Source: a virus
Direction: 5' to 3' (one strand)
Virus record (IMG/VR): IMGVR_UViG_3300032053_000387
Coordinates: 1 to 28,679 of that record
Length of the DNA stretch: 28,679 nucleotides
Every line of letters starts with the position of its first letter. Position 1 is the first letter of the stretch. Position numbers and translations under genes: made by a program. Below are positions 5,502-27,792 of this stretch, piece by piece. The notes beneath the pieces were generated by a model that ran no database searches, was not told where the DNA came from, and was given only the letters and a program-made list of their open reading frames with translations.

Positions 5502-5535
5502 GATGATATATTTTTTATTATATATTATCATGGAT
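5496..5535 (-). promoter_or_regulatory. Hairpin covering the endonuclease start codon, with a late-like promoter inside
   Basis: Sixteen-nt arms at 5496-5511 and 5520-5535 form an inverted repeat with one mismatch (A-C in the minus-strand RNA) and an 8-nt loop. The 3' arm of the minus-strand RNA contains the AUG at 5501. The 5' arm and loop read AATATATAATAAAA (5526-5513), similar to the late-like box. Read-through RNA would hide the start codon; RNA begun at the internal promoter would lack most of the 5' arm. The regulatory role is inferred by analogy with T4 I-TevI. Confidence 0.5.
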
Positions 5536-5548
5536 TATATAAAGATAA

Positions 5549-9468: not shown

Positions 9469-10354
9469 GTTGTAAAAATTTTAGACATTTTTGTATAGTA
9501 TTTTTATCATCTATTTCATTTTCCCAAATAATTAAAATTTGATAATTTAATTTTTTTAATGTGTTTATTTTGAATTCATCTTTTTTCCAAATTTCTTTAG
9601 CTTTTAATATTCTAGATTTTGCTATCATTATTTCAGAATTTTCATCATAAAATAATGGATTTGCATGATAAAAATTTCCATTAAATTCAATTATTTTATT
9701 ATCATAAAGCAAATCAACATAAAATCCTTTATTTTTATTATATCGTATCCATTTTTCTCTTTTACCATAAAATAACTCTGCGTTTATATATTTTTGTAAT
9801 TCATTAAAAATTTTTTCTGATATTTTACTGTATCTTCTATAGAATGGATTTGTTCTTCCACCTCTTTTTTTGCAAAATATTTCAGTTCGTTCTTCACCAA
9901 ATTTATCAATTAGTTGTTGTTTTGTTTTTCCTCTGCTTTTATTGATTTTTTTTCTTTCGTCTTTAGATTTAGAATAATATGTATTTTTACGCTTAATCAT
10001 CATATTATATATTTTTTCATCGCTTAAATTTATAATACTACATTTATTTTTTAAATTATTAATTTTTTCTATAGCATCAATTTCTGAAAATCCCCTTTCA
10101 ACCCAATATTCTTTTAAATATACATTTGCTATATTATTTTTATTTTGTTTATTACTATTGAATAATTGTTTTTCTTTTATTTTTTGTAAAGCTTCTTCTT
10201 CTGAAAACCCTTTTTTAATCCAAAATTCTTTGCACCAACAAGAATTTTCTCTATTATTTTTTTTAATATTTTCTATACATTTAATAGAATCTTCTTCTGA
10301 AAATCCTTTATTTTTCCAATATTCAATCGAATATCTTGATGTTCCCTTTTTCAT
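9461..10354 (-). CDS. Intact homing endonuclease, PD-(D/E)XK/Vsr-like, nested in the ATPase split intein
   Basis: 297 residues from the ATG at 10354. The first 100 residues contain three tandem modules of the form (E)YW-x-x-(K/R)GFSE-x-x-(A/S)I (at about 11, 43 and 82), probably DNA-binding. The C-terminal catalytic domain has FYVDLLYDNKIIEFNGNFYHANP (quoted in part; key residues Asp, Glu, Gly, His), then KAKEIWKKDEFK and IIWENE, like the Vsr-type nuclease seen with fractured split-intein genes. The same domain is in the decayed gene at 24957-25985. It would cut intein-free alleles of the ATPase gene and so drive spread of the insertion. A late-like promoter and a hairpin at the start codon precede it. 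Confidence 0.82.
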   Translation of the reverse strand: MKKGTSRYSIEYWKNKGFSEEDSIKCIENIKKNNRENSCWCKEFWIKKGFSEEEALQKIKEKQLFNSNKQNKNNIANVYLKEYWVERGFSEIDAIEKINNLKNKCSIINLSDEKIYNMMIKRKNTYYSKSKDERKKINKSRGKTKQQLIDKFGEERTEIFCKKRGGRTNPFYRRYSKISEKIFNELQKYINAELFYGKREKWIRYNKNKGFYVDLLYDNKIIEFNGNFYHANPLFYDENSEIMIAKSRILKAKEIWKKDEFKINTLKKLNYQILIIWENEIDDKNTIQKCLKFLQHE

Positions 10355-10388
10355 AACAATACTGTTTATTTTATATATTATTATGAAA
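10349..10388 (-). promoter_or_regulatory. Hairpin at the endonuclease start codon with a late-like promoter in the loop
   Basis: In minus-strand RNA UUUCAUAAUAA (10388-10378) can pair with UUGUUAUGAAA (10359-10349), 11 bp including one G-U, covering the AUG at 10354. The intervening loop carries the late-like box AATATATAAAATAAA (about 10380-10365). A transcript starting at that box would lack the 5' arm and leave the start codon free. The function is inferred. Confidence 0.5.
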
Positions 10389-10407
10389 TATGCTGGAACT
10401 GCCAAAA

Positions 10408-11295
10408 CTACATCAAATCTGCAATATTAATTTCTTCTTCTTTTTTTGTTTTTTTATTTCTAATTTTAATTTTTGTATTTCCAACTACACATTTTCCTGT
10501 GCCAGCATCTCCACTTAATATAACTAAATTAGTTTTATCTTTACTATTTAGACCATTTATTATTTCTACAGATTTTTCTATAAACCCATCATTATAATTT
10601 TCTGTTAGATCAACATTTATCTTTTTAACATCAAATCCTATTTTATCAAATCCGTGTTGATTTCTATATACGATATAAATTTTATTCTTAGATACTTTAG
10701 GTTTTCTAACTCCTCTTAATAAACTTAGTAAATCATGAAATATATTATTTTCTTCTTTTTCATATGCTATATTATAATAGATTGCTCCATCATTAGGACC
10801 ATCGAAATATATCAATAAATCTTTTCTAAAAGCTATTATAAATGAAGTTAATTTAGATTCATCAGAATCTTGAAATGAAATTTTACTATAGGAAGTTTCG
10901 GGAACTTTATAATTTTTAAATAATTCATTTATAAATTTATAAATATTAAATTCTTCAAATCTATAGATAGCAGGATAATACCCATTAACAATTTGAAATC
11001 TATACGCAAAATGATTTAGTTCTGAAGAATAGGAAAAAAAGCCTTCATCACTATCAGCCATTTGAGTAAATTCACTAATGTTATAAAATGTAAGATCAGT
11101 TACATCACTAAATTTCTTAGCTTTAATTTTCTTTATATCAATAGCAATATCTACTGTATCTTTTTTATTTTCAGTTGTATTGCCTTCTTCATAATCCTCA
11201 AAATTATCATATTCTATTTGCATATCACTATCTATATTAAATAATTTTTCTATAAAATTAAAATATTCTTTATCATGTTTAAACTCAGTTTTCAC
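10408..11295 (-). CDS. AAA ATPase, N-half: N-extein plus 27-residue N-intein
   Basis: I choose the GTG at 11295, one base after the gp39 stop and about 10 nt after GGAGG, over an upstream ATG at 11349 that lies inside gp39. The 268-residue N-extein has no motif I know until its end, NLVILSGDAGTGK, the first part of a Walker A loop. The next residue, Cys269, begins a very short N-intein, CVVGNTKIKI followed by a Lys/Glu-rich stretch and INIADLM, then a TAG. The broken P-loop means neither half can bind ATP until trans-splicing with the product of 8641-9468 restores GDAGTGK-TFFIRYL. It is transcribed directly after gp39, which suggests a role in replication or packaging, but no specific function is shown. 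Confidence 0.85.
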   Translation of the reverse strand: MKTEFKHDKEYFNFIEKLFNIDSDMQIEYDNFEDYEEGNTTENKKDTVDIAIDIKKIKAKKFSDVTDLTFYNISEFTQMADSDEGFFSYSSELNHFAYRFQIVNGYYPAIYRFEEFNIYKFINELFKNYKVPETSYSKISFQDSDESKLTSFIIAFRKDLLIYFDGPNDGAIYYNIAYEKEENNIFHDLLSLLRGVRKPKVSKNKIYIVYRNQHGFDKIGFDVKKINVDLTENYNDGFIEKSVEIINGLNSKDKTNLVILSGDAGTGKCVVGNTKIKIRNKKTKKEEEINIADLM

Positions 11296-11296
11296 T

Positions 11297-13102
11297 TTAT
11301 TTACCCTCCAACCAAACTTTCCGTTTTGCGGTGGAGTCTCCAAAAACAATTTCTAAAAATCTATTAGCACTTCTATCATCTATCATAGAAAATAATATTT
11401 TATTTTTCATTACGTTTTCCCAATCTTCTATATTTAATGATCCTAGCCCTTTAAGATAATTGACATTTGTTACTTTTGTGGTCACTATAAATTCTTCATA
11501 TTCTTTAAGCGTATAAAAATACGTTCTTTCTTTTCCAATACTACAAACTACTAATGGAGTTGTTATTCTAAATAGTTTTTTACTTTCTATTATATGTGGA
11601 AACCATTTATGAAAAAAACTAACTATTAAAGAAGCTATGTGATGGCCATCTCCGTCTTCATCGCTTGCAATTATTATTCTATCATATACCGGTTGTTTAT
11701 TGCTTCCGGGTTCTATTTCAAGAATACTCATTATATCTAACCATTCTGCATTACCCGTTAAATCTGATAGTTTTCTTGCATTTTTTACTTTTCCTTTAAG
11801 GGCATATACAGCATCAGATTCGGTGTCTATTACTTGTAGAAGAGAACCTTTTGCCGAAAGCCCCTCTGTAATATAAATATTGTGTTTATATTTAGAAGCT
11901 GGACTAAATTTATCAGAAATTTTACGTTTTGATTGTTTTTGTGCTTTTCTTATTTTAACAATATTTTCATTATGTAGTCTATCTTCAATAGATTTTTCAA
12001 TATTTCTAGCAATTTCTGATTTACCTAAAAATTTGATTAACTTATTATAGAATGAATCTTTTAAATGTTCTTCTATTTCCCATCTGCCAGTAGCAAATTT
12101 AGTTTTATTTTGATCTGAAAATTTCATTAGTTGAGATGGAACATTAAGAGATATTAATGTTTCATAAAAATGATGCGCAAGATTATAATTGAAATATTCA
12201 TTGCACCAATCATTAACCACTTTTTGATGAATTCCTGTACATTGAGAACCATTAACAAAAGATAAAGAACAAGAATTTTCATAAGCTTCCCATAAATATA
12301 TAGTCCCAAGGTAATTTGTAACAGTTATATGATTTGGAGGAATAAAATCAGTTGTAATGTCAATATCAAATTCTTTTCCTTCTTTAATAAAATATCCTTT
12401 TAAATTTAATTTGTTAATTGTAGGATCATTTTTAATTAAAAAGTATTTAAACGATAAATATGTTGTTATTAAATCAATATCCCATTTATATTTAGGGAAA
12501 ATTTGTTGAGAAGGTATAAATGAAATAGAAGTTCCTATTTTATCTACAGAAGTTTTTTTGCGAATTTCTTCTTCAACAATTTTAAAATCATCCCAAACAA
12601 ATCTTACATAATGAGTTTTATTCACTGTAATTACAGAAAACCTTTCGGATAATATATTTGTAACAGCAGATCCCACGCCATTAGTACCAATAAGGTTAGA
12701 TTCTGTATCTGTAAAATTAGAACCTGCGTGTAATTCTTCTAATGCTGTACGAACAACATTCTTTTTAGTTTTAGGATGTTTTTTAGCTGCATTGTGAAAT
12801 CCTAAACCTTCATCTGTAACTGTTATTTCATTACTATCAAGATTTACTTTAACAGTAATATTTTTCATTTTACCCTTACAACGTTTAGCTTCATCTAAAG
12901 CATTTTCTAGTATTTCTACAATAAGATGCATAAATCCTGGAGACCAAGACTTATCCATATACAATAATTTCCCATCAATAACAAGCGGAAGTTTCTCTTC
13001 TAAAAGAGAAACTTGAGATACATACATTGTAGGACGCAATCTTACTGCTTCAAACGTATTAAGGGCGATTATTTCTTTAGAATTTTTTTGTTCTATCGCC
13101 AT
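11297..13102 (-). CDS. DNA topoisomerase II large subunit, gp39-type (GyrB-like)
   Basis: 601 residues in one uninterrupted frame. The GHKL ATPase domain shows ILENALDEA (Glu66, Asn67 region), DEGLGF (97-102) and GTNGVGSA (139-146). The transducer region follows, then the TOPRIM domain with YITEGLSAKG (Glu413) and the magnesium-binding DEDGDGHH (Asp481, 483, 485). It supplies ATP hydrolysis and half the cleavage centre for the gp52-type subunit encoded at 5549-6091 and 3469-4779. In T4 the equivalent is split into gp39 and gp60; here it is a single gene. An AT-rich leader of about 60 bp separates it from the small zinc-protein gene upstream. The AAA ATPase starts one base after its stop. Confidence 0.93.
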   Translation of the reverse strand: MAIEQKNSKEIIALNTFEAVRLRPTMYVSQVSLLEEKLPLVIDGKLLYMDKSWSPGFMHLIVEILENALDEAKRCKGKMKNITVKVNLDSNEITVTDEGLGFHNAAKKHPKTKKNVVRTALEELHAGSNFTDTESNLIGTNGVGSAVTNILSERFSVITVNKTHYVRFVWDDFKIVEEEIRKKTSVDKIGTSISFIPSQQIFPKYKWDIDLITTYLSFKYFLIKNDPTINKLNLKGYFIKEGKEFDIDITTDFIPPNHITVTNYLGTIYLWEAYENSCSLSFVNGSQCTGIHQKVVNDWCNEYFNYNLAHHFYETLISLNVPSQLMKFSDQNKTKFATGRWEIEEHLKDSFYNKLIKFLGKSEIARNIEKSIEDRLHNENIVKIRKAQKQSKRKISDKFSPASKYKHNIYITEGLSAKGSLLQVIDTESDAVYALKGKVKNARKLSDLTGNAEWLDIMSILEIEPGSNKQPVYDRIIIASDEDGDGHHIASLIVSFFHKWFPHIIESKKLFRITTPLVVCSIGKERTYFYTLKEYEEFIVTTKVTNVNYLKGLGSLNIEDWENVMKNKILFSMIDDRSANRFLEIVFGDSTAKRKVWLEGK

Positions 13103-13165
13103 AAAGATTTTTATATTATATTGTAATTATATATAAAGGTTTTTAATGATGTAAATGTAAAATTT

Positions 13166-13330
13166 TTAAATTTTTTCATTTTTTATTTTTTTAATAGGAG
13201 TTATATGTTTATTATATTTACTCCAAAACGCACAATTATAACAAAGTTCTTCAGATTTCATTATATTAAGTATTTCTTTTGTTATAAAACCCTTAGGCAT
13301 AGTATCTTTTTGACAAGTTTTGCAAATCAT
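13166..13330 (-). CDS. Small zinc-ribbon-like protein, 54 aa
   Basis: A short frame from the ATG at 13330 to a TAA at 13166. It encodes two Cys-x-x-Cys pairs, MICKTCQKD (Cys3, Cys6) and ELCYNCAFW (Cys30, Cys33), spaced as in a zinc ribbon, and a lysine-rich tail (PIKKIKNEKI). It fills most of the gap between the DUF932-like gene and gp39 and starts 17 bp after the DUF932 stop. A similar arrangement of two CxxC pairs occurs in the unrelated gene at 18486-18716. Small zinc proteins of this kind often act in protein or nucleic acid binding; nothing more can be said. Confidence 0.55.
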   Translation of the reverse strand: MICKTCQKDTMPKGFITKEILNIMKSEELCYNCAFWSKYNKHITPIKKIKNEKI

Positions 13331-13346
13331 AGTTATTTAATTTTAA

Positions 13347-14198
13347 TTATGCATTTATCATATATTCTTCAGCTACTTGCCAAAGTACTTTATTAAAATC
13401 AATGTTACGAGTTGCATTAGTAATTCCACGTGGTCTTGATCTTCTTCCATTTACAGTATGTCTTTCGAATTCACCTTTAACAAGTCTTTCTTGTACTACA
13501 TTAAATACAGTCCAAAGATCTTCACTTGCATCTTCACCTCTAAGAGGTTCAACTATTTGTCTTGGATTCATAATAGCAGTTACTTTTTTGGTATCTATTG
13601 TTCCATCTGGTTGAACAAATACTCTAGGTTCACGAGCTGCAATAGCCTTTATTACAAATTCTTCTCTTTGATCTTGATTAAGAGTATATTGTTGCATATC
13701 ACCTATATGCTTACCAATTTTAGTATACTGTTCAGCAACAATAGACATTAACTGTTTAAGTTCATCAATATCAATGCCAACGTGACGAAGTTTAATAGAT
13801 GTAAACATTCCAGGCATTGCAACTATAAGTCCATTTGTACATACAAGTCTAAAAAGACCCATGTGACCCATGGTAGGAGATCCACCATTATGAGAATTAT
13901 CGATAACAAACTGAGGCTTAACTTTATCCTTTTTAAGGTTCATGAAACCAAGTTCAGGATTAGTAAACCTTATCATATGACGAGCATAAGGACTGGAACC
14001 ATTTTGTTTAGCAAAAGTTGGTAACCATCCAGTTTTTTCAAAGGCGACAATTAAATCATCGGTAGGAACGAAAGAATAACGTTCAGAAAGTTTAGGGCTC
14101 TCATGTTTTGAGAATGCAGCAGGAACATGATTACGAAGATCTTCAATTGTTTGAACTTTGTAACCAATTGATGTTAAGGAATTGTCAATTTGAATCAT
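13347..14198 (-). CDS. DUF932-family protein
   Basis: 283 residues with features of the DUF932 family common in phages and plasmids: LSERYSFVPTDDLIVAFEKTGW near the N-terminus, GHMGLFRLVCTNGLIV in the centre, and a C-terminal NPRQI...DLWTVFNVVQERLVKGEF helix block followed by the basic NGRRSRPRG. Members are often made early and abundantly; the molecular role is not settled, although links to DNA metabolism have been suggested. The gene is visibly less AT-rich than its neighbours, as expected for a highly expressed gene or a different origin. Copy B of the ~40-bp promoter-like element ends 27 bp before the ATG. Confidence 0.75.
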   Translation of the reverse strand: MIQIDNSLTSIGYKVQTIEDLRNHVPAAFSKHESPKLSERYSFVPTDDLIVAFEKTGWLPTFAKQNGSSPYARHMIRFTNPELGFMNLKKDKVKPQFVIDNSHNGGSPTMGHMGLFRLVCTNGLIVAMPGMFTSIKLRHVGIDIDELKQLMSIVAEQYTKIGKHIGDMQQYTLNQDQREEFVIKAIAAREPRVFVQPDGTIDTKKVTAIMNPRQIVEPLRGEDASEDLWTVFNVVQERLVKGEFERHTVNGRRSRPRGITNATRNIDFNKVLWQVAEEYMINA

Positions 14199-14224
14199 TG
14201 CGGTATGAATTAAGTTTAAACTTC

Positions 14225-14268
14225 TATAGTAAATATAATCAATTTTTCTGAGACTAAAAAATATTTTA
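14225..14268 (-). promoter_or_regulatory. Copy B of the ~40-bp promoter-like element
   Basis: Read leftwards: TTTTTTAGTCTCAGAAAAA, then TTGATTATATTTACTATA, 27 bp before the DUF932 ATG. It differs from copy C (22254-22297) at a single central position over about 40 bp. It lies back-to-back with a rightward late-like promoter at 14283-14298. Confidence 0.65.
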
Positions 14269-14282
14269 TCAATTATTTTCTA

Positions 14283-14298
14283 AAATATATAAAATAAA
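14283..14298 (+). promoter_or_regulatory. Late-like promoter box of the rightward ESDP island
   Basis: AAATATATAAAATAAA lies 5 bp before the GTG at 14304. It is the same box as those upstream of leftward ESDP genes, but on the opposite strand and pointing at an ESDP gene. Confidence 0.55.
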
Positions 14299-14303
14299 AC
14301 AAA

Positions 14304-14651
14304 GTGAGAGCCAAATTTGTATTTGAAAAATTTACAGAAAATTCTGATCCTGTTCATGACATGGGAATTGGAATGTATGGTATGATAAGAAATTGGGTAA
14401 AAAAAGATTTTAATTTATCAGATAAAGAACTATATAATATTACAGATGAAACTTTTTTGATAGCATCAACTCTTCGTAATAAACTTGATTTTGTTAAATA
14501 TTTAATAAAAACTAGAAAAGTTAAAATTCCTGATGGTTTGATATCACAAGCAATAAACAATAAAGCAAATACCGATATAATTTTATATTTAATAACAGCC
14601 GGAAATGAAAAATCATTTGATTATGTAAAAAAACGTATGAAAAAATTATGA
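14304..14651 (+). CDS. ESDP-tagged protein with ankyrin-like body
   Basis: 115 residues from a GTG start; no ATG is available before the motif. Residues 1-23 (MRAKFVFEKFTENSDPVHDM then GIG) are the ESDP tag. The remainder is helical, with hydrophobic periodicity reminiscent of ankyrin-type or related helical repeats (LRNKLDFVKYLIKTRKVKIP, then NNKANTDIILYLITAGNE). First gene of a three-gene rightward set linked by ATGA overlaps. The tag begins similarly to the third gene of the island (MRAKFILEKF), as though the cassette was copied. I infer a virion-internal or otherwise targeted protein; the cargo function is unknown. Confidence 0.75.
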   Translation: MRAKFVFEKFTENSDPVHDMGIGMYGMIRNWVKKDFNLSDKELYNITDETFLIASTLRNKLDFVKYLIKTRKVKIPDGLISQAINNKANTDIILYLITAGNEKSFDYVKKRMKKL

Positions 14652-15103
14652 ATATTATAAAAGAATATATTAACGAAAAATTTACTCAAGAATCAGATCC
14701 TATTCAAGATTTAGGAATAGGTTTAAAAAATAATCCTAAAATTCTTTTACCGATTGTATGTAAGGAACTTAAAAAATATGGAATTATAGCTGAATGGGAA
14801 TCATCATACGAGTTTGGTCCAGGACACTATGATATTTATATTGAAGGCAATGATACTGATGAAGATATGGATGTTCAATATTTTTATTCTACTGATGCAG
14901 CAGCACATGAAGAAGGATGGAAAGGCGGTTTCAGTTTAGCTAATGATGAAGGAATTAACTTATGTAAAATTTCTCATGATCGAATGATATCTGAAAAAGC
15001 TTTAATAAAAAGAAAATTTGGAAATAAATCTAACATTAATAAAGAAATTAAAAAATTAGAAAATCAATTACAAATATTAAAAGAAGTAGAAAAAATAGTA
15101 TGA
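14648..15103 (+). CDS. ESDP-tagged protein, second in the rightward island
   Basis: 151 residues; the ATG overlaps the previous stop by four bases. The tag is KEYINEKFTQESDPIQDLGIG at residues 5-25. The middle is a compact, acidic alpha/beta-looking domain with WESSYEFGPGHYDIYIEGND and a cluster of Asp/Glu. The last 35 residues form a lysine/leucine-rich coiled coil (KEIKKLENQLQILKEVEKIV). No family is recognised. The start MNIIKEYINE also resembles capsid-targeting leaders of T4-like phages such as MKTYQEFIAE of T4 internal proteins, which end in an I/L-x-E cleavage site. Confidence 0.75.
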   Translation: MNIIKEYINEKFTQESDPIQDLGIGLKNNPKILLPIVCKELKKYGIIAEWESSYEFGPGHYDIYIEGNDTDEDMDVQYFYSTDAAAHEEGWKGGFSLANDEGINLCKISHDRMISEKALIKRKFGNKSNINKEIKKLENQLQILKEVEKIV

Positions 15104-15369
15104 GAGCTAAATTTATACTTGAAAAGTTTATAGAAGAATCTGATCCCATAAGAGATATGGGAATTGGTATCGAAACACTGATAAATAATTGGCTTAAAAC
15201 TTTATCATATATAGATTTACAACATACGTACAATAAACATGGTATGATGGTACAGTGTATAACACACAATAAACCTGAATTTTTTAAATATTTTTTAGAA
15301 AAAAGCAATCTTGATTTTCCTACTCTTTATGCTTGGATAAAATATGCAAAAAATAATAAAAAAAAGTAA
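15100..15369 (+). CDS. ESDP-tagged small protein, third in the rightward island
   Basis: 89 residues; the ATG overlaps the preceding stop (ATGA). The tag reads EKFIEESDPIRDMGIG at residues 8-23, followed by a short helical body (LINNWLKTLSYIDL, then HNKPEFFKYFLEKS) that parallels the start of the ankyrin-like body in the first island gene, and a poly-lysine end. After its stop, 15382-15440 contains an untagged open stretch reading INEYIEKRNTGSIKYKRFND in another frame, perhaps a gene remnant. The island closes at the hairpin at 15463-15489. Confidence 0.7.
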   Translation: MRAKFILEKFIEESDPIRDMGIGIETLINNWLKTLSYIDLQHTYNKHGMMVQCITHNKPEFFKYFLEKSNLDFPTLYAWIKYAKNNKKK

Positions 15370-15462
15370 ATATTATAAATGAATATATTGAAAAAAGAAA
15401 TACAGGTAGTATAAAATATAAAAGATTTAATGATATCTGTACATGATGTAGCAACTTAAACT

Positions 15463-15489
15463 AAAAAACCTGAATTATTCAGGTTTTTT
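15463..15489. terminator. Bidirectional rho-independent terminator
   Basis: A perfect 12-bp stem (AAAAAACCTGAA / TTCAGGTTTTTT) with a 3-nt loop. It ends the rightward ESDP island and the leftward SiaC-like gene, whose TAA stop forms the loop. Confidence 0.85.
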
Positions 15490-15861
15490 AATGTAATTAA
15501 ATTTTAATTTTGAAACATATTCATAATCTGCTCCACTATCAAGCATATTCTCATCCCCTTCTTCATAATACCAATTAACAGTAACTTTATGATTATGTTC
15601 TTCTACTGTTTTTGCAATCTCAAATATTTCAACAAATATTCTAGAAGATTTTGTATTAAAATACTCTAAATCAATGTCCATAGTTAAATCCATTGGTTTT
15701 TTTTCTACACAATGTTTAAAATATGGTACAAATTCATCAAAGTATTCTTCGGCAGTTGTAGCAATGGAACGTCCCTGTATCAATACAGTTCCTTTCATTT
15801 CTTCATAAACAATTTTCGGTAGGGTTTTAGCCTCATTTCCTGGTAGTATCATAAAGGGCAT
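15475..15861 (-). CDS. SiaC-like (DUF1987) regulatory phosphoprotein
   Basis: 128 residues with the DUF1987/SiaC pattern: VLIQGRSIATTAEEYFDEF near the N-terminus, the hallmark DLEYFNTKSSRIF (Thr70, Ser72), and KVTVNWYYEEGDENMLDSGADYEYVS. In Pseudomonas aeruginosa SiaC is switched by phosphorylation of the residue in the equivalent FNT motif and binds the diguanylate cyclase SiaD; relatives are widespread in Bacteroidota. A phage copy could interfere with this host signalling or serve in a phage partner switch. I see no kinase or phosphatase partner in the window. A late-like promoter box lies just upstream of the ATG and a shared terminator overlaps the stop. Confidence 0.75.
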   Translation of the reverse strand: MPFMILPGNEAKTLPKIVYEEMKGTVLIQGRSIATTAEEYFDEFVPYFKHCVEKKPMDLTMDIDLEYFNTKSSRIFVEIFEIAKTVEEHNHKVTVNWYYEEGDENMLDSGADYEYVSKLKFNYIKKPE

Positions 15862-15863
15862 CT

Positions 15864-15879
15864 TTTATTTTATATATTC
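15864..15879 (-). promoter_or_regulatory. Late-like promoter box of the SiaC-like gene
   Basis: Read leftwards: GAATATATAAAATAAA, ending 2 bp before the ATG at 15861. The very short distance implies a leaderless or nearly leaderless transcript, or use of a start codon further in. Confidence 0.45.
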
Positions 15880-15887
15880 TAGATTTT

Positions 15888-16085
15888 TTATTCTAGATGG
15901 CAATGAATACTCATAGCAGTATCTTCTGAATTTTCATAAAAATGTATTTCTTCTAGAGTCACACCACATTTTTCAACGTTATAATTAACTGTTGAGCCCG
16001 CAACATCAGGATGAATATTGCAAATATAACAGCCTACAGGTTTAGTACAGTTTGAAATAGTAAATATAAACAAAAAATCCGACAA
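15888..16085 (-). CDS. Small Cys/His-rich protein, uncertain start
   Basis: The frame from the ATG at 16085 gives 65 residues. The core CYICNIHPDVAG followed later by KCG and a final HCHLE suggests metal binding. The start is doubtful: the ATG lies inside the terminator hairpin at 16076-16105, and a promoter-like TTTATATTTACTAT (about 16071-16058) follows it, so a transcript from there would lack this ATG. No other ATG, GTG or TTG start precedes the CxxC motif in frame, so either readthrough transcripts are used or a rare start codon. The body ends near the SiaC-like gene's promoter box. No family recognised. Confidence 0.45.
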   Translation of the reverse strand: MSDFLFIFTISNCTKPVGCYICNIHPDVAGSTVNYNVEKCGVTLEEIHFYENSEDTAMSIHCHLE

Positions 16086-16105
16086 ATAAAAATATTTGAC
16101 GGATT
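16072..16105 (-). terminator. Rho-independent terminator after the nuclease-like gene
   Basis: Arms at 16076-16088 and 16093-16105 pair over 13 positions with one mismatch around a 4-nt loop. On the minus strand the hairpin is followed by TTTTTTG. It lies 22 bp after the stop at 16127. Confidence 0.75.
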
Positions 16106-16126
16106 ATTTTAACAGTTTCTTAACAA

Positions 16127-16534
16127 TTATTTAAAAAATTGATCTAATGACCAATGTTTAAGATTTTTTAATCTATAATACTTAAATCCCGGATCTCCTG
16201 ACATTAATGTATCAAAGTAATTTCTATTCATTTTTTTTATTTCTGCTGCTTCTATAACTATTGGAGTATGCAGCATATAATGATACACTATAAAATATTT
16301 GCCTGCAAAATTATCTAAAGATTTAAATGAAATCGCGTTTCTTTTAATATCGAAGCGTTCTCCGTTTACAAGAAAATCGCCATTAACTAAATCATATGAT
16401 ATGCTCCAATATGATTCATTAATAAATTTAGTATAAGGAATATGATTATCTATTAAATATTGTTCAAATAAATTTTCAGCTTCTACGCCCTTATTATATC
16501 TGACTTGAAATGTACTAAGATCTAGATTATCCAT
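16127..16534 (-). CDS. Possible PD-(D/E)XK-fold protein
   Basis: 135 residues. The N-terminal region GVEAENLFEQYLIDNHIPYT is a helix like the one that opens many restriction-endonuclease-like folds; it is followed by DLVNGDFLVNGERFDIKRN, where an Asp (GDF) and Asp-x-Lys (DIK) have the spacing of a PD-(D/E)XK core. The rest alternates strands and ends in the basic YRLKNLKHWSLDQFF. This is a fold-level guess. It follows a 53-residue gene by 10 bp and is closed by a strong terminator, so it is the last gene of that operon. Confidence 0.5.
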   Translation of the reverse strand: MDNLDLSTFQVRYNKGVEAENLFEQYLIDNHIPYTKFINESYWSISYDLVNGDFLVNGERFDIKRNAISFKSLDNFAGKYFIVYHYMLHTPIVIEAAEIKKMNRNYFDTLMSGDPGFKYYRLKNLKHWSLDQFFK

Positions 16535-16544
16535 TATTTTTATA

Positions 16545-16706
16545 TTAATACAAATTTGTACTTATTTCTTGAAGTACCCATGAATTAAATGATTGCGTCG
16601 AATTCATTCGTTTTACTTCAAGATCAACAGAAAATACAACGTGCCTTTTATTATTAGTTATATCATAACAAGATTGAAATTTATCTTTTGCGTCAGACAT
16701 TTTCAT
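16545..16706 (-). CDS. Small protein, 53 aa
   Basis: Frame from the ATG at 16706, which overlaps the stop of the preceding gene (TAATG), to the TAA at 16545; a second ATG at 16700 is also in frame. The protein starts MKMSDAKDKFQSCYDI and includes RHVVFSVDLEVKRMNS. The coupling to the upstream gene and the 10-bp gap to the downstream gene argue for a real gene. I recognise no family; it looks soluble. Confidence 0.55.
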   Translation of the reverse strand: MKMSDAKDKFQSCYDITNNKRHVVFSVDLEVKRMNSTQSFNSWVLQEISTNLY

Positions 16707-17041
16707 TATAAAAAATTATTAAGTAAAGGATGATATATTGATAAATAATCTGCTATGCCTTTTATTTCCCCAAAATTTTTAATAGCTGCTGAACCTTTAG
16801 ACATAGCTAACACTTTATGTTCTGTTTTTAATTCACTTTTTTCTGTAATATAATCATATCCGTATTTACCTACGAATTTTACTTTTTCCCCAAAATAATT
16901 AGAAAGAAGGGTTTCATATAAAGGTTCTAATATTAATCCATTGTTTATATTGTTATAAATGCCGCCTTCATTAATAAAATTGTCAATCATCGATTCATGA
17001 CAATCTTCAATAAAAACAGGAATAAATTTTTTAATTTTCAT
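16706..17041 (-). CDS. Hypothetical protein, 111 aa
   Basis: An unrecognised soluble protein beginning MKIKKFIPVFIEDCHESMID. The middle has GEKVKFVGKYGYDYITEKSEL, then a helical end with LAMSKGSAAIKNFGEIKGI. It heads a small operon with the 53-residue and nuclease-like genes, coupled by a TAATG overlap. A promoter-like TATTATATTTACATTATA lies about 20-35 bp before the ATG, sharing the core of the ~40-bp element but not its upstream part. Confidence 0.6.
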   Translation of the reverse strand: MKIKKFIPVFIEDCHESMIDNFINEGGIYNNINNGLILEPLYETLLSNYFGEKVKFVGKYGYDYITEKSELKTEHKVLAMSKGSAAIKNFGEIKGIADYLSIYHPLLNNFL

Positions 17042-17058
17042 CTTTATAAGTTTTAAAT

Positions 17059-17076
17059 TATAATGTAAATATAATA
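17059..17076 (-). promoter_or_regulatory. Promoter-like core
   Basis: Read leftwards the region gives TTATTATATTTACATTATA, the same TTATATTTAC core as the three ~40-bp elements, placed 18 bp before the ATG at 17041. The upstream TTTAGTCTCAG half is absent. Confidence 0.4.
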
Positions 17077-17129
17077 AAAATACTTGATAATATAAAATAT
17101 TTTATGGATTATTTTTATCAATTTTCATA

Positions 17130-17561
17130 TCAAATTATTCTAAATGTTTTTGTTTCATTTACAGGCCAGAAATATTTTCCATCATTAAATCCTTTATCTC
17201 TTGGAAATTTAGGACCATAAAAATTTTCATTTTTTTCGATAAGTCTTGCTCTCATTGCTCTATGGAAATTTTTATCTCCTATCCACCATGGATCTGTATT
17301 TTGATGATCAACATCATATTTAATCATTGTATTTTTATATCCTCGTTTAACCCACTCATCAATACAGCAATTGGTGTAGTATTTTAAAGAATTGGTGTAA
17401 CCTACCCACATTTTAATTGCTGGGTGATTCTGCCACGCTGTTGTTCTTCCTTCAAGAATATTAACAATTTGCATTGCTTCAATTCTTTGTTTTCCCAGAC
17501 GTTTCATATCAAGTTGTTGAACGCTTCTGATATAGTTAGGATAGGGCAAAAAGGTTTGCAT
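17130..17561 (-). CDS. MSMEG_6728 / pyrimidine-dimer-glycosylase-like family protein
   Basis: The start at 17561 is chosen because the family begins MQTFLPYPNYIRSVQQLD and this ATG comes directly after the previous stop. Family features: LDMKRLGKQRIEAMQIVN, then AWQNHPAIKMWVGYTNSL, then CIDEWVKRGYKN, and DPWWIGDKNFHRAMRARL. The related endonuclease V fold removes UV dimers in T4, but members of this group are mostly uncharacterised, so a DNA-repair role is only suggested. 143 residues. Followed by 88 bp without a gene. Confidence 0.7.
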   Translation of the reverse strand: MQTFLPYPNYIRSVQQLDMKRLGKQRIEAMQIVNILEGRTTAWQNHPAIKMWVGYTNSLKYYTNCCIDEWVKRGYKNTMIKYDVDHQNTDPWWIGDKNFHRAMRARLIEKNENFYGPKFPRDKGFNDGKYFWPVNETKTFRII

Positions 17562-17562
17562 C

Positions 17563-18279
17563 TTATGAATTATTTTTGTCGATTTTTTTCCTGAGTTCAT
17601 TCAATGCTAATTCTATTGTATTCGCAACATCTATTAGTTTATTATCATCTGGCTGTTTAACTTTATCTTTTATACAAGTCTCATAGCCTTTTCTATACGA
17701 TTCTTTTGCGAACTCGAATATTTTCAACATTAATTCTTTTCTTTTATTATAATCGCCTACAAAAGTTTTAAGATTTTCATTATATTTTGTAGAAAAATAC
17801 AACCAATCTACATTGTAAGTAAAATCATAGTTTACTAAATCAAATTTAATCGTATCGTTACTTACTGAAGTGTTCTCGGGAGAATAGACATGAGCATATG
17901 GTTTATCTGAAAATCTATATGTTCTAGAACTTTCAAATTCTACTTTTTCGCCTCCGGGTTTTAGAGCAGATGGAACTCTCCAACCATTTTTATAGTATAT
18001 AATAGATGTAAGAATTTTTCTTTCTTCAATAACTGCTTCTGCAATAACTTCTACGCGCTCGTTTGCAGCAAAAGAATTTAAAATCCAAATAGGTTTTTTA
18101 TTAGTAAAACTATAAGTTTTTTTAAACATTACATTTCTGGCAGCTCTTTTGGTAATATCTAACCACCAATTTTTTCCAAGAATTTCAGTAAGCGGGCCAC
18201 TACCACTTTTCCTATTAACATAAATATTACGTATACTGTGTACACATCTTTCTACCGCTTCGTTATAATAATTTTTCAT
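17563..18279 (-). CDS. Hypothetical protein, 238 aa
   Basis: An unrecognised protein. The N-terminal half has SGSGPLTEILGKNWWLDITK and a run of alternating strands (IWILNSFAANERVEVIAEAV); the C-terminal 90 residues are helical and charged (NKRKELMLKIFEFAKESYRK, then NTIELALNELRKKID). The ATG overlaps the stop of the small membrane-protein gene upstream (ATGA), and the glycosylase-like gene starts right after its stop, so all three are one operon. Confidence 0.6.
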   Translation of the reverse strand: MKNYYNEAVERCVHSIRNIYVNRKSGSGPLTEILGKNWWLDITKRAARNVMFKKTYSFTNKKPIWILNSFAANERVEVIAEAVIEERKILTSIIYYKNGWRVPSALKPGGEKVEFESSRTYRFSDKPYAHVYSPENTSVSNDTIKFDLVNYDFTYNVDWLYFSTKYNENLKTFVGDYNKRKELMLKIFEFAKESYRKGYETCIKDKVKQPDDNKLIDVANTIELALNELRKKIDKNNS

Positions 18280-18443
18280 TTATCGTCAGGTTTTAAATAT
18301 AACGTTGATGTAATATAATTCCATATTGAAAATACTCCCCAACATACTGCCCATTCAGTTTTTCCTTTTGCAGCGTAATATAACATTATACCAAGGCATG
18401 CAAAGGCAAACAACAGCATAACTGTAAATAATAATTTTTTCAT
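18276..18443 (-). CDS. Small membrane protein, 55 aa
   Basis: Frame from the ATG at 18443 to a TGA that overlaps the next ATG. The N-terminus MKKLLFTVMLLFAFACLGIM is either a signal-like or a transmembrane segment (Leu5-Tyr22), followed by a tryptophan-rich second hydrophobic stretch (WAVCWGVFSIWNYI) and a short charged tail KPDDK. The cysteine in FAC-LG at residue 15 is not in a clear lipobox. Tight coupling to the downstream gene supports it. Confidence 0.6.
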   Translation of the reverse strand: MKKLLFTVMLLFAFACLGIMLYYAAKGKTEWAVCWGVFSIWNYITSTLYLKPDDK

Positions 18444-18485
18444 AATAATTTAATGTATTTGTTAATTGATTAATTTGACAATGAT

Positions 18486-18716
18486 TTATTTTTCATCATT
18501 ATTATCTTTTTTAAATATTTTCATTATCATATCTAATGCACATTTACTGCAAAACAAAAGATCTGTTCTATCTATTAATTCTTTAAATCCAAGATTTTCT
18601 TTTATTATTATGCCGCATTTACGACATAATACAGCACCCCTACCATTATTAAATTTAAAAATAGGTTTTAACTGTTTTTTAGTTATAGGATCATATTTTA
18701 AACGAGACCAAGTCAT
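18486..18716 (-). CDS. Small zinc-binding protein with two CxxC pairs
   Basis: I place the start at the ATG at 18716, 4 bp after the upstream stop, rather than at 18758 inside the upstream gene. The 76-residue protein starts MTWSRLKYDPITKKQLKPIF and contains VLCRKCGIII and LLFCSKCALDM, separated by about 20 residues, a probable zinc ribbon, with a lysine-rich end. Together with the 80-residue gene upstream it forms a compact pair. No specific family is recognised. Confidence 0.6.
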   Translation of the reverse strand: MTWSRLKYDPITKKQLKPIFKFNNGRGAVLCRKCGIIIKENLGFKELIDRTDLLFCSKCALDMIMKIFKKDNNDEK

Positions 18717-18720
18717 AATT

Positions 18721-18963
18721 TTAATTTTTTGCAGATTTCCATGAAATTTTATATTCACTAAAATGTCTCCATTTCGTACTTATTTTGTAACCCTCAGTTT
18801 TAAGCTGTTTGACAACTTCATTATAAAGATATATATCGATGTTTGTGTAAAAATTTCCTTTCAGTATCGCCATTTCTATATCTTTCATTACTTTTTCATA
18901 TTGCGGTGTAATTAAAGATTTTATGGTTTTTACCGTTTTTTTATTTGCTTCTTTTGCTGTCAT
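18721..18963 (-). CDS. Small phage protein, 80 aa
   Basis: Starts MTAKEANKKTVKTIKSLITP. The pattern of a helical N-terminus, a mid-helix (EVVKQLKTEGYKIST) and a final strand with EYKISWKSAKN matches a type of short protein often seen in phages of Bacteroidota and Firmicutes, whose function is unknown. It follows the 36-residue membrane peptide by 7 bp and precedes the zinc protein by 4 bp. Confidence 0.6.
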   Translation of the reverse strand: MTAKEANKKTVKTIKSLITPQYEKVMKDIEMAILKGNFYTNIDIYLYNEVVKQLKTEGYKISTKWRHFSEYKISWKSAKN

Positions 18964-18970
18964 ATATTTT

Positions 18971-19081
18971 TTATTTAAATATTCCTTTACTTTTTAATAT
19001 TCCATACAATATAAACCATATTATGTATAATGTAGGAAACCAAAAAACTTTAATTAATAATACTATTTTATCTTTTTTCAT
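18971..19081 (-). CDS. Single-span membrane peptide, 36 aa
   Basis: Frame from the ATG at 19081 to the TAA at 18971. It starts MKKDKIVLLIKVFWFPTLYI and has one hydrophobic helix (about residues 7-29) with positive charges at both ends. A promoter-like TATTATATTTG lies 15-25 bp upstream, right after a terminator, so it appears to be the first gene of a leftward operon. Small size makes the call tentative. Confidence 0.45.
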   Translation of the reverse strand: MKKDKIVLLIKVFWFPTLYIIWFILYGILKSKGIFK

Positions 19082-19089
19082 AAATACTT

Positions 19090-19103
19090 TGTACAAATAT
19101 AAT
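19090..19103 (-). promoter_or_regulatory. Bacteroidota-type promoter -7 box
   Basis: Read leftwards the sequence is TTATTATATTTGTAC; TATATTTG fits the Bacteroidota -7 consensus TAnnTTTG exactly. It directly follows the terminator at 19104-19132 and precedes the ATG at 19081. Confidence 0.45.
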
Positions 19104-19132
19104 AAAAAAACCCGAAATAAAAAAACTTCGAG
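19104..19132 (-). terminator. Rho-independent terminator after an ESDP gene
   Basis: On the minus strand CTCGAAG pairs with the TTTCGGG side across an 8-nt T-rich loop, with G-U pairs, followed by TTTTTTT. It lies about 55 bp after the stop at 19187. Confidence 0.6.
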
Positions 19133-19186
19133 TCATATATTTCTGTTAAAAATCTGTTAAAGATTTAAGGTATTTTCTAACTAACA

Positions 19187-19684
19187 TTATTGTTTTGGAT
19201 CTTTTACTCTTATATCATTACCTTTAACATTACAAACTTTTTTTACATCTTCAATTGTAAATTCAACTAAATTATTATAGCAAGCAAACATATCATCTAC
19301 TTTTTTAGGTGCATATTCTAATGATGTTAATTGATTGTCACAACAAAAGAAATTATCTGTAACATATTCTGGACATCCTCGTAAAGTAGTTAATGGATTT
19401 GAATTAATCCACATAGTACCTTTAACTGTTCTAAATTTAATATATAGCGGTAATTCTACTAATCCTATATTATATAAATTTAAATTACCTTTAACATCTA
19501 TAGTTAAATTGTTATTTATTGTAAATTTAGCTTCGAGAACAAATGGATCGTGGTATCTACCTACAGAAAATTGTTTTATCCACTTTTCAATAATAGCTCT
19601 ATTACCAATTCCCATATCTCGTATAGGATCAGATTCATCTGTAAATTTTTCATTGATAATATAGTTTTTTACAAATCTCATCAT
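19187..19684 (-). CDS. ESDP-tagged leucine-rich-like protein
   Basis: 165 residues. The tag INEKFTDESDPIRDMGIG is at residues 10-27. After a short linker (AIIEKWIKQF) comes a leucine-rich-like solenoid with repeated elements of the form L-x-x-L-x-x-(C/A)P-x-x-V: NLYNIGLVELPLYI, NPLTTLRGCPEYV, NQLTSLEYAPKKV. Such 'NQLTSLEGCP' repeats occur in various large phages and mediate protein contacts. The ATG (two in tandem at 19684 and 19681) follows the preceding ESDP gene's stop without a gap. Last of a three-gene ESDP operon closed by the terminator at 19104-19132. Confidence 0.75.
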   Translation of the reverse strand: MMRFVKNYIINEKFTDESDPIRDMGIGNRAIIEKWIKQFSVGRYHDPFVLEAKFTINNNLTIDVKGNLNLYNIGLVELPLYIKFRTVKGTMWINSNPLTTLRGCPEYVTDNFFCCDNQLTSLEYAPKKVDDMFACYNNLVEFTIEDVKKVCNVKGNDIRVKDPKQ

Positions 19685-20191
19685 TTAATTCTGACGTTTA
19701 TGTTTTATGACTTGTTCTTTATATACTTGTTCAGTTTTATACTGACTATAAATAATTGAAAAAACTTTATAATCCATTCCCCTGTTATAACACGCCGGCT
19801 TTAATATATTTCTAAATTGAGGATTAATTTTAAATCTTACAATCATCGGCAATTTTGCTTTAGATATAGATTCCAGACATATGTTATCGTGTTTGATTAA
19901 TTTAGGATCAATAAGGACTCTACTTAATCCTAGATCATAAATTATGTTTTTAACATAATTGAATAAATCATTTACTTCAGTTTTTGATAAAGGCTTAACA
20001 TGAGGATGGCTAAACCAAAAATCTATGTATGTATTCCGAATGTATATAGTAAATAATAATTTTTTATTATCATGTTTATCTACTAAATCTACTAAATTTT
20101 TATATTGATTAACTGCTCCAATTCCCATGTCAGTTATAGGATCTGATTCATCAGTAAATTTTTCATTTATATATTCTTTAACTAATTGCAT
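19685..20191 (-). CDS. ESDP-tagged protein, middle of the leftward set
   Basis: Start at 20191, where TAATG couples it to the upstream gene; an in-frame ATG at 20197 lies within that gene. 168 residues from this start. The leader MQLVKEYINEKFTDESDPI (then TDMGIG) closely parallels the second gene of the rightward island (MNIIKEYINEKF). The body is an unrecognised alpha/beta domain (LLFTIYIRNTYIDFWFSHPH, SRVLIDPKLIKHDNICL) with a basic tail (EQVIKHKRQN). Confidence 0.75.
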   Translation of the reverse strand: MQLVKEYINEKFTDESDPITDMGIGAVNQYKNLVDLVDKHDNKKLLFTIYIRNTYIDFWFSHPHVKPLSKTEVNDLFNYVKNIIYDLGLSRVLIDPKLIKHDNICLESISKAKLPMIVRFKINPQFRNILKPACYNRGMDYKVFSIIYSQYKTEQVYKEQVIKHKRQN

Positions 20192-20523
20192 TACCATCTT
20201 AGCTCATTTTCTTCTCTCCATCTTTGTTCTCCTTCTTCTTGTCGTTCTCTTTCATACTCTTCCTGCCTTGCACGATCTTGTTCTCTATTATATTCCTCTT
20301 CTTGACAAACATTACACCAAGTTTCTTTAACGTATTTATCCCCAAATTTATCTAATATTATTTGAGCCCTATTAAGTTTATCTCCAAATAAAACTTCTCC
20401 ATATTCATCTATTAAACCACCGCATACATCGCAGCGATAAACAATTCCTTTGATTCCTATTTCTAAATCATTGATAGGATCTGATTCATCTTGAAATTTC
20501 TCATTAACAAATCTGGCTCGCAT
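20191..20523 (-). CDS. ESDP-tagged zinc-ribbon protein with charged helical tail
   Basis: 110 residues. The tag is the most diverged copy: MRARFVNEKFQDESDPINDL then EIG. Next comes a zinc ribbon with CDVCGGLIDEYGEV and WCNVCQEE (two CxxC pairs about 40 residues apart). The last 35 residues are almost only Glu, Arg and Gln (EEEYNREQDRARQEEYERER), a long single helix. A late-like promoter box lies about 14 bp upstream; this is the first gene of the leftward ESDP operon, with TAATG coupling to the second. Confidence 0.75.
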   Translation of the reverse strand: MRARFVNEKFQDESDPINDLEIGIKGIVYRCDVCGGLIDEYGEVLFGDKLNRAQIILDKFGDKYVKETWCNVCQEEEYNREQDRARQEEYERERQEEGEQRWREENELRW

Positions 20524-24291: not shown

Positions 24292-24951
24292 TTATTTTTC
24301 AAAACGTTTACGCGATGCATCTGTTATAAAAATATATTGTGCTTTTCCTATAAAATCTTCTAATGATTTAGCATTGCAATAACTCATTGCTGATTTTAAA
24401 TAGTCTTCAAAATTTTCTGTCCATTGTTCTAATGTATATTCAACCAGTTGATATTTTGTTATTCCTTCTGCTGTTACCAGTTGTGCTTTTCCCCAATTTC
24501 TTTGTACAGCCTTTGTACTCATTCCTCTATATTTTTTCTTAATAGGAAAACCCCATCTCCATAAAGTTTCAGCTATTTTATTATTTATCTTTATTTTCCA
24601 AAGATAATTGAACCCTGCAGATTCTATAGATTTATTAAAAATAGAACCAATCATAACATAATCTGCGCCTAAGGCAAGGGCTTTAATTATATCTGAATAA
24701 TTTCTCATACCTCCATCGGCAACAATTTTTGTTTTTATATTATAATGTTTTCTTGCTTCATAACATTCAGATATTAATGAACCTAATGGATAATTTATAG
24801 ATACGTTTGCAGCTGTAGTGCATCCACTATTATGAACGATTACTCCGTTAATATTATATGAATGATTATCTTCTATTTCTAAATCATATATTTTTCCTTC
24901 ATATAATGATTTCTTAATAGTATTAATTTTTATTAATTTAAATGATTTCAT
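24292..24951 (-). CDS. IMP dehydrogenase/GMP reductase family, C-half: C-intein plus C-extein
   Basis: The ATG at 24951 follows the endonuclease stop by 5 bp. Residues 1-41 are a C-intein like that of the split IMPDH-1 intein: KIYDLEIEDNHSYNI and NGVIVHN, with Ser42 as +1 residue. The extein begins SGCTTAANVSINYPLG, supplying the catalytic Cys loop (SxCTT), followed by KIVADGGMRNYSDIIKALAL and GADYVMIGS of the (beta/alpha)8 barrel and a late segment with RKRFEK. Trans-splicing with the product of 26042-26893 gives about 361 residues without CBS domains, the size of GMP reductase. It acts in guanine nucleotide balance; reductase versus dehydrogenase cannot be settled here. Confidence 0.88.
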   Translation of the reverse strand: MKSFKLIKINTIKKSLYEGKIYDLEIEDNHSYNINGVIVHNSGCTTAANVSINYPLGSLISECYEARKHYNIKTKIVADGGMRNYSDIIKALALGADYVMIGSIFNKSIESAGFNYLWKIKINNKIAETLWRWGFPIKKKYRGMSTKAVQRNWGKAQLVTAEGITKYQLVEYTLEQWTENFEDYLKSAMSYCNAKSLEDFIGKAQYIFITDASRKRFEK

Positions 24952-24956
24952 ATTAT

Positions 24957-25985: not shown

Positions 25986-25987
25986 TG

Positions 25988-26032
25988 TTTTTAATTTATA
26001 TATTTATATTCATACAAATTATGTATGAATAT
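25988..26032 (-). promoter_or_regulatory. Hairpin and late-like promoter between the IMPDH/GMPR N-half and the endonuclease
   Basis: Arms at 26006-26015 and 26023-26032 (ATATTCATAC / GTATGAATAT) form a perfect 10-bp hairpin just after the N-half stop. Reading on leftwards, AATATATAAATTAAAA is a variant late-like box ending 3-4 bp before the ATG at 25985. Unlike at the other two loci, the hairpin does not cover the start codon. Confidence 0.4.
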
Positions 26033-26041
26033 ATATTGATA

Positions 26042-26940: not shown

Positions 26941-27792
26941 TTATTCTATTTCTGAAGCATCAATATTCTCCAAATCCTTATCCTTATCTGGTATTATATT
27001 CTTCAGAATCATTTTAGTTTTTGGTATAGGTTTTTCTATTTCTTTCGGGGTTTCTTTATTAGATTGCTGAATTTGATCTTCACGATTTTCAAATTCTTCT
27101 TGCGTAGCAAGTTTCCAATCACTTCCTAATTCTTTTAAATGCTTAATTGTATCTTTAGGTGTAATGTCCATTATTTTTGATGCTCCTGTAATTGGATTTA
27201 TAAAATAATATCTTTTTTCTCCTTCTGTTTTTTCAATAGGCTTAATTTTTTCAATTTCGGGTTTTTCTTTTTGCGGTACTTTTATAGGTTCTGTTATAGG
27301 TTTACCATCTACAGTAACTATTGGTTGTGTGCCTTTAGTCTCTATACCTTTAACTGCAACGCTTTCTCCGTCTGGTTTATCTTTAACCATAACTATAGGT
27401 TTGCCGGTTTCTTCACTTTTCTTAAGTACTATTTCTTTACTTCGTTGTGATACACTTCTCCAGTCGTGTTTTTGTAAATCATAAAATGTTGCTACTTTTG
27501 GAGATGAATGGCGAATTCCCTTTGGATGTTGAGATTGCGGCACATAATTCATTAAAAGTGTTCCCTTTGCTGGCCTCACCTCACCATCTAATTTAATAAA
27601 TTCAAAATTTACTATTTTTTTTCTCAATATATTTCTTAATTCTTCAATTGTTACTGGCTCACCATATAACAGGCGCTCTAATAATAATTCTTTATACAAA
27701 TAATCTACAATAGATTGATCTTCTAAAGATTCACAAATTCTATTTTCAAATAAAATTTCGCCAACAATGCTCTTAATTAAAAATTCTGTCAT
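26941..27792 (-). CDS. DUF2693-like protein with long low-complexity tail
   Basis: 283 residues. About residues 45-115 resemble DUF2693, a domain frequent in Bacteroidota and their phages: a strand IVNFEFIKLDGEVRPAKGTL, then KVATFYDLQKHDWRSVSQ. The next 150 residues are rich in Pro, Lys, Glu and Thr (EPIKVPQKEKPEIEKIKPIE) with short strands between, probably an extended linker, and include YYFINPITGASKIMDITPKD. The function of DUF2693 is unknown; it may bind nucleic acid or protein. The ATG overlaps the stop of the GIY-YIG gene (ATGA), suggesting the endonuclease gene was inserted directly ahead of it. Confidence 0.6.
   Translation of the reverse strand: MTEFLIKSIVGEILFENRICESLEDQSIVDYLYKELLLERLLYGEPVTIEELRNILRKKIVNFEFIKLDGEVRPAKGTLLMNYVPQSQHPKGIRHSSPKVATFYDLQKHDWRSVSQRSKEIVLKKSEETGKPIVMVKDKPDGESVAVKGIETKGTQPIVTVDGKPITEPIKVPQKEKPEIEKIKPIEKTEGEKRYYFINPITGASKIMDITPKDTIKHLKELGSDWKLATQEEFENREDQIQQSNKETPKEIEKPIPKTKMILKNIIPDKDKDLENIDASEIE

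Follow-up and report, generated by a model that had tools for sequence, protein, structure and literature searches.

Phage T4 packages three internal proteins tagged with a capsid targeting sequence (CTS), which block host restriction systems; outside the leader they show no homology to one another, and they inhibit Type IV restriction enzymes (PMC12373910). In one of them, IPIII, the ten N-terminal residues suffice for packaging, with residues 4 and 7 serving targeting and residues 8 and 10 processing (PMC9026906), and both ipII and ipIII start with MKTYQEFIAE/A (from NC_000866; here and below a slash marks the cut or presumed cut). For phages SPN3US and phiKZ, PMC5694885 describes the paralogs gp53 and gp54 as having an identical N-terminus and diverged bodies. 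Here we compare these systems with a set of proteins encoded in a 28,679-nucleotide stretch of viral DNA (positions 1 to 28,679 of IMG/VR record IMGVR_UViG_3300032053_000387; hereafter the window), which carry a short leader followed by a shared peptide, the ESDP tag. An earlier note on this stretch had proposed that the proteins are targeted to the capsid and cut, in the manner of gp21, behind the Glu that precedes KF. Our computational analysis supports this proposal through the site pattern, the presence of S77 protease and gp23 capsid genes in sister phages, [ILV]NE sites in their capsid and scaffold proteins, and the likeness of the leaders to the T4 CTS. We consider it quite probable that a large T4-like phage uses the tagged proteins as internal (cargo) proteins, which carry a CTS leader, are cut by an S77 protease and retain the ESDP tag.

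The leader and the ESDP tag are separate units

All eight tag copies claimed for the window were recovered independently (Table 1), including the two inside the open reading frame (ORF) at its 5' end; five of the six short tagged ORFs start where the earlier note had placed them, and the fifth begins at 20197 rather than 20191. A degenerate DNA pattern of the tag matches the window five times, against none in 100 dinucleotide shuffles, and it also matches 114 IMG/VR stretches. From the IMG/VR loci fetched we compiled at least 277 distinct copies (185 N-terminal, 78 internal and 14 other). The tag was not found in GTDB genome contigs with a slightly stricter DNA pattern, nor in INPHARED phages by tblastn with the consensus.

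The copies consist of two modules. The first is a leader of about 8-12 residues ending in [ILV]-x-E (for example MKLVREHINE or MRAKFINE), ten residues being the commonest length and eight the next; the second, F-x-x-E-S-D-P-I-x-D-M-x-I-G, follows the presumed cut. Across the 277 distinct copies, P1, the residue before the cut, is Glu in 99% of N-terminal and 100% of internal copies, and P3 is Ile, Leu or Val in 98-99%; P2 is mostly Asn, with Tyr or Phe next in N-terminal copies. Because columns -3 to -1 before KF played no part in copy selection, this conservation of P3 to P1 is unbiased. The resemblance to T4 is also one of position: 52 of the 76 leaders that are exactly ten residues long fit MK...E[HYF]I.E, and the conserved Ile and Glu fall at positions 8 and 10.

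Two objections had been raised in the earlier note against its own proposal, namely that the P1' residue is Lys and that conservation extends past the site. The first does not hold as stated, since P1' is not fixed: among 178 copies found with a hidden Markov model (HMM) of the tag it is Lys in 154, Ala in 7, Val in 4, Arg and Gly in 3 each, and Ile and Thr in 2 each, with Leu, Ser and Asp also present. Spacing varies as well, as the related record G002 has two-residue insertions between site and tag that keep [ILV]xE (HIDE-RM-GFTEDSDP, FIYE-AL-GFTEDSDP and SLNE-YL-GFTEDGDP). In addition, leaders occur without ESDP: 21 of 787 untagged ORFs reach the leader score threshold of 10, where shuffles or internal-Met controls lead one to expect 0.6-1.7 (examples are MKLVREHINE/EQIDE, MKLIRESLNE/EIMSK and MKAKLVNE/SMYPR). 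Taken together, leaders without ESDP, the variable P1' and the insertions indicate that the [ILV]xE leader is one unit and ESDP another. The conservation past the site is therefore present but belongs to a separate module, and the ESDP peptide, which had been regarded as part of the leader, lies beyond the site and would remain on the mature protein. FYPxLxE, considered as a general second leader, was rejected, being largely restricted to one gene family.

When the window's leucine-rich-repeat (LRR) protein was used as a tblastn query, only LRR-repeat or chance matches were returned, and the two loci opened were without ESDP. In LR756501, a 735-kb uncultured phage (L184), and in a Vibrio phage (L185), LRR genes lie beside ORFs that have CTS-like leaders (such as MKNFTRFINE/N, MKKLSNIKNFELFLNE/N and MKFKQFLAE/S) and no ESDP; giant phages may thus often have cargo of the CTS type.

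Polyprotein-like ORFs and variable bodies

At least two tag copies are present in 56 of the 217 tagged ORFs of the fetched loci, with a median spacing of 125 amino acids (aa), and the most copies per ORF are eight (a 913-aa ORF of G002) and seven (an 827-aa ORF of G005). Internal copies are preceded by xNE, as N-terminal ones are, and have a consensus of their own (Ser or Asn at -4; Val, Leu or Ile at P3), which argues that they are not merely fresh fusions. Identical body families are found alone and within polyproteins. In the G002 ortholog of the window's 688-aa ORF there is an extra N-terminal module (MSLYPRLFE/...), and the shared body comes after EPFYPSLNE/; as the same body follows MSFYPKLLLE/ in the window, the site moves together with the module.

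ESDP recurs at every internal site of the polyprotein-like ORFs. One ESDP per precursor would be enough for import alone, yet it stands after every site, which suggests that each product needs it. A more specific scheme, which we hold tentatively and rate somewhat short of even, is that a precursor with up to eight cargo modules is packed via one leader and cut in the prohead by the capsid protease into effectors each born with ESDP, a new second-stage sorting or ejection signal. Searches of an open-access paper library yielded no match for polyproteins that a phage prohead protease cuts, nor for an ESDP-like tag.

The claim that the bodies differ completely largely stands: clustering by sequence divides 311 module bodies into 104 groups, of which 73 have a single member. 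Bodies of the ankyrin-like and LRR-like kinds do recur, however. Four window modules share one loose single-linkage cluster. A Pfam scan of 107 tagged ORFs returned almost only ankyrin repeats, and Pfam, PHROGs and PADLOC together gave little beyond these for the cargo; we thus claim no effector function for it.

Protease, capsid and scaffold genes of sister phages

The window fragment stops short of the head genes. The gp21-like protease gene that the earlier note had said should be sought is, however, present in sister genomes as an S77 domain. One such sister of the window's phage is G001 (IMGVR_UViG_3300027899_000001), a 405-kb virus record. Of those core proteins of the window that have a match, about two thirds show 55-87% identity to G001 and are mostly collinear with G001 positions 94.5-135.8 kb; for the tagged proteins, which have diverged, identity is about 38-51%, and most of them lie at other places. 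G001 is T4-like, with homologs of gp4, gp17, gp18, gp20, gp21, gp23, gp41, gp43, gp44, gp46, gp47, gp61 and UvsX. A type IX secretion domain in a neighbouring ORF suggests that these large T4-like phages probably have a Bacteroidota host. By the tag HMM, G001 contains 87 tag copies in 63 ORFs (10.9% of coding sequence) and G005, an 84-kb record, 58 copies in 30 ORFs (28.5%). Positions 100-22862 (+) of G005 (L155-L156) hold about 27 tagged genes that follow one another head to tail almost without gaps; in many of them the stop codon overlaps the next start codon.

In G001, a 781-aa ORF (L144:6658-9003) directly upstream of the gp23 capsid gene combines the S77 domain (PF03420; 57 bits against a cut-off of 27) with a long coiled, scaffold-like region, and a tagged gene pair lies near it. 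Both S77 and gp23 (PF07068) score above their cut-offs in G001, G003, G015 and G017. G030 has S77 alone and G007 has gp23 alone, each near a contig end, and carrier records without both may be fragments. Within the protease-scaffold fusions [ILV]NE occurs 10 times in G001 (1.25 expected), 10 times in G015 (1.0 expected) and 12 times in G017 (1.3 expected), counts that none of 2000 shuffles reached for the latter two. At the presumed end of its propeptide the capsid protein reads HALNE/AAMGG in all three phages examined, and its T4 counterpart FLTE/AEIGG. The preference of the S77 enzyme inferred from these sites, [ILV]-N-E, coincides with the site pattern of the tags. Apart from their main head genes, G015 (L151, 21399-24409) and G017 (11216-15172) have another S77-like protease, of small size, close to an additional gp23-like gene; G001 has a gp23-like paralog, and no second S77 was found there.

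A model of capsid-targeted cargo and its alternatives

The sequences establish the tag, the leader, the site pattern, the protease, the capsid and scaffold sites, the polyprotein layout and the diversity of the cargo; to these our model adds, by inference, cleavage, packaging, ejection, a role for ESDP and the targets. The 8-12-residue N-terminal leader would dock each precursor onto the prohead core, where the S77 prohead protease would cut after [ILV]-x-E, removing the leader and splitting polyprotein ORFs into up to eight modules. ESDP would be kept by the mature product, in which it would stand at the new N-terminus or close to it, most likely as a second, retained signal that, for example, holds small proteins in the head or guides ejection. 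ESDP-bearing products would stay with the DNA and then be injected, and the bodies (ankyrin-like, LRR-like and many others) would probably be directed at targets in the host, for instance its defences, by analogy with the T4 internal proteins.

Several observations weigh against this model. Most copies have Lys at P1', whereas the presumed capsid site and many of the scaffold sites have small residues there, and a retained conserved tag is not among the features of T4 internal proteins in the accessible parts of the sources. The window fragment has neither protease nor capsid gene, both being taken from its sisters. MAFFT places LNE/A not exactly opposite T4 LTE/A, so that their equivalence rests on local similarity, and untagged G001 proteins as a whole contain [ILV]NE somewhat more often than expected (146 vs 100.6). 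The sequence AATATATAAAA, which resembles a late promoter, precedes tagged operons more often than others (12 of 32 vs 22 of 148, p 0.006), but the motif was defined post hoc on the same genes, which makes the enrichment weak evidence.

The usual contiguity of site and tag, the conserved K-F and the retention of both parts in internal copies are also what one would expect if [ILV]-x-E-K-F-x-x-E-S-D-P were one continuous, uncut peptide that docks onto a protein of the head or core, with the polyproteins acting as multivalent, beads-on-a-string binders. We regard this as unlikely, given that the leader is found without ESDP, that P1' and spacing vary around a constant [ILV]xE, and that in these phages the scaffold and capsid proteins have the same site without ESDP. 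It is improbable, too, that the tag is unrelated to the virion and instead directs proteins synthesised in the infected cell, for example to RNA polymerase, a replication compartment or the membrane. Tagged genes are indeed scattered among replication and nucleotide-metabolism genes in both the window and G001, but the ip genes of T4, too, lie dispersed between genes unrelated to the head, and the likeness to the T4 CTS and to the capsid and scaffold sites, as well as the tagged pair near the protease gene, speak against this reading.

The similarity might also be a relic of recent gene duplication or reflect an element acting in DNA or RNA, such as a recombination site, promoter or mRNA structure. 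The tandem arrays would fit, as would codon use at N-2, E-1 and K+1, where AAC, GAG and AAG reach 2-3 times background in the IMG/VR loci, unlike most other fixed residues; this skew perhaps avoids AATGAAAAATTT (an out-of-frame ATG and slippery run). On the other hand, synonymous codons for the fixed F, I, D and G residues are used at background frequencies and Ser is drawn from both codon families, which indicates selection on the protein. Moreover, the leader is kept on unrelated bodies, and variants preserve the Glu and hydrophobic residues rather than the DNA. We find an origin of this kind very improbable, and rejected the DNA- or RNA-level explanation on the codon analysis.

If the capsid-targeted cargo model is true, leader plus ESDP would provide a sequence handle with which to list the injected proteins of uncultured phages, and the question of what giant phages inject would become directly testable. 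A T4-like giant phage appears to put the same address label on 63 genes, some encoding several products. The model would also imply that phages make use of polyproteins and that a second signal serves head sorting or ejection, neither of which we found in the open-access library searched.

Tagged ORFs and neighbouring genes in the window

Table 1. Tagged ORFs and other features of the window. Slashes mark presumed cuts.
Feature	Coordinates (strand)	Leader (positions)	ESDP tag	Tag recovered at	Body and remarks
Tagged ORF, 115 aa	14304..14651 (+)	MRAKFVFE/ (14304-14327)	14328-14372	14322 (+)	Weakly ankyrin-like
Tagged ORF, 151 aa	14648..15103 (+)	MNIIKEYINE/ (14648-14677)	After leader	14669 (+)	Acidic
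Tagged ORF, 89 aa	15100..15369 (+)	MRAKFILE/ (15100-15123)	15124-15168	15118 (+)	
Tagged ORF, 165 aa	19187..19684 (-)	MMRFVKNYIINE/ (19684-19649)	After leader	19580 (-)	LRR-like domain
Tagged ORF, 170 aa	19685..20197 (-)	MVMQLVKEYINE/ (20197-20162)	20161-20117	20117 (-)	
Tagged ORF, 110 aa	20191..20523 (-)	MRARFVNE/ (20523-20500)	After leader	20437 (-)	Zinc-ribbon-like part, charged helix
Multi-module ORF, 688 aa	3..2066 (-)	MSFYPKLLLE/ (N-terminal)			Conserved ~520-aa body next; runs off contig
688-aa ORF, first copy, after body		FYPRLDE/KF-ESDP	461-417	417-467 (-)	Followed by remnant
688-aa ORF, second copy		MKLVREHINE/KF-ESDP (329-300)	From 299	231-308 (-)	Ankyrin-like end
WYL_2-domain protein	26941..27792 (-)	MTEFLIKSIVGEILFE/			Candidate untagged leader; weak, leader score 8.9
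SiaC-family regulatory phosphoprotein	15475-15861 (-)				
Topoisomerase IV/gyrase A-like and IMPDH genes	3469-6091 and 24292-26893 (-)				Each intein-split
Clamp-loader-like gene	8641-11349				Looks interrupted

The ankyrin-like assignment of the 115-aa protein comes from an Ank_2 match (E 0.006) under the curated cut-off. The 151-aa protein has an ortholog in G002 (65% over 144 aa). In the AlphaFold2 model of the LRR protein, residues 1-18 are disordered, with a predicted local distance difference test score (pLDDT) below 50 for the leader and tag start and above 90 for the core; such a disordered leader is expected of a cleavable leader but is not proof of one. The model of the 688-aa ORF was discarded as too poor (mean pLDDT 48.9). 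The WYL_2 protein falls below the leader score threshold, and its G002 ortholog has MTELLIKNTISEILFE/ as the candidate leader.

A C-terminal motif, approximately F-[ST]-x-E-D-[VI]-x-x-x-C, recurs in many tagged ORFs (in the LRR protein near residues 140-152), and the 688-aa ORF has it too, as the remnant that follows its first ESDP copy. The SiaC-family gene adjoins the tagged trio at 14304-15369, and in G002 its homolog likewise lies beside a tagged gene, the ortholog of the 151-aa ORF. Small endonuclease-like ORFs separate the halves of the topoisomerase and IMPDH genes, the former of which is continuous in G001; the interruption of the clamp-loader-like gene looks similar, and the G002 version is continuous.

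Comparison with known systems

With the ejection proteins of phiKZ and SPN3US, the tagged proteins would share their place as in-head cargo and a cut after x-x-Glu, both of which are predictions here. In the accessible part of the source, the sites of those phages are A-x-E or S/A/G-x-E, several propeptides exceed 100 residues, eight of about 50 SPN3US head proteins are processed, and no ESDP tag is described. The polyvalent proteins of phages and conjugative elements also join several unrelated domains in one polypeptide and are predicted to be injected, but the accessible part of PMC5512222 describes no repeated unit of tag and protease site between modules, and no shared leader was seen between polyvalent-protein families and the tagged proteins. 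Polyvalent proteins are marked by catalytic domains, such as those in the catalogue of Iyer et al., joined in a single chain; the Pfam scan of 107 tagged ORFs returned almost only ankyrin repeats.

The closest likeness is to IPI, IPII and IPIII of T4 and their protease gp21: a ten-residue leader of the form MK-x-x-x-E-[aromatic/H]-I-x-E with hydrophobic P3 and Glu at P1, unrelated and variable cargo bodies, and T4-type head genes (gp20, gp21, gp23, gp17 and gp18 homologs in G001). Unlike in T4, the protease is fused to a scaffold-like region, P1' is most often Lys, there are second leader types (MRAKxxNE and MSFYPxLxE), ORFs have a polyprotein layout with up to eight tags, and a second conserved tag is predicted to be retained after the cut. 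The scale differs as well, with 63 ORFs and 87 tag copies in G001 against three internal proteins in T4. By most of its defining features, as far as these can be read from sequence, the system would thus belong with the T4 internal-protein/CTS system, for which a retained second tag, polyproteins and this scale are unreported in the open-access library searched; since ESDP is conserved past the site, where in T4 nothing is conserved beyond the leader, we place it there as a variant rather than a plain T4-type member.

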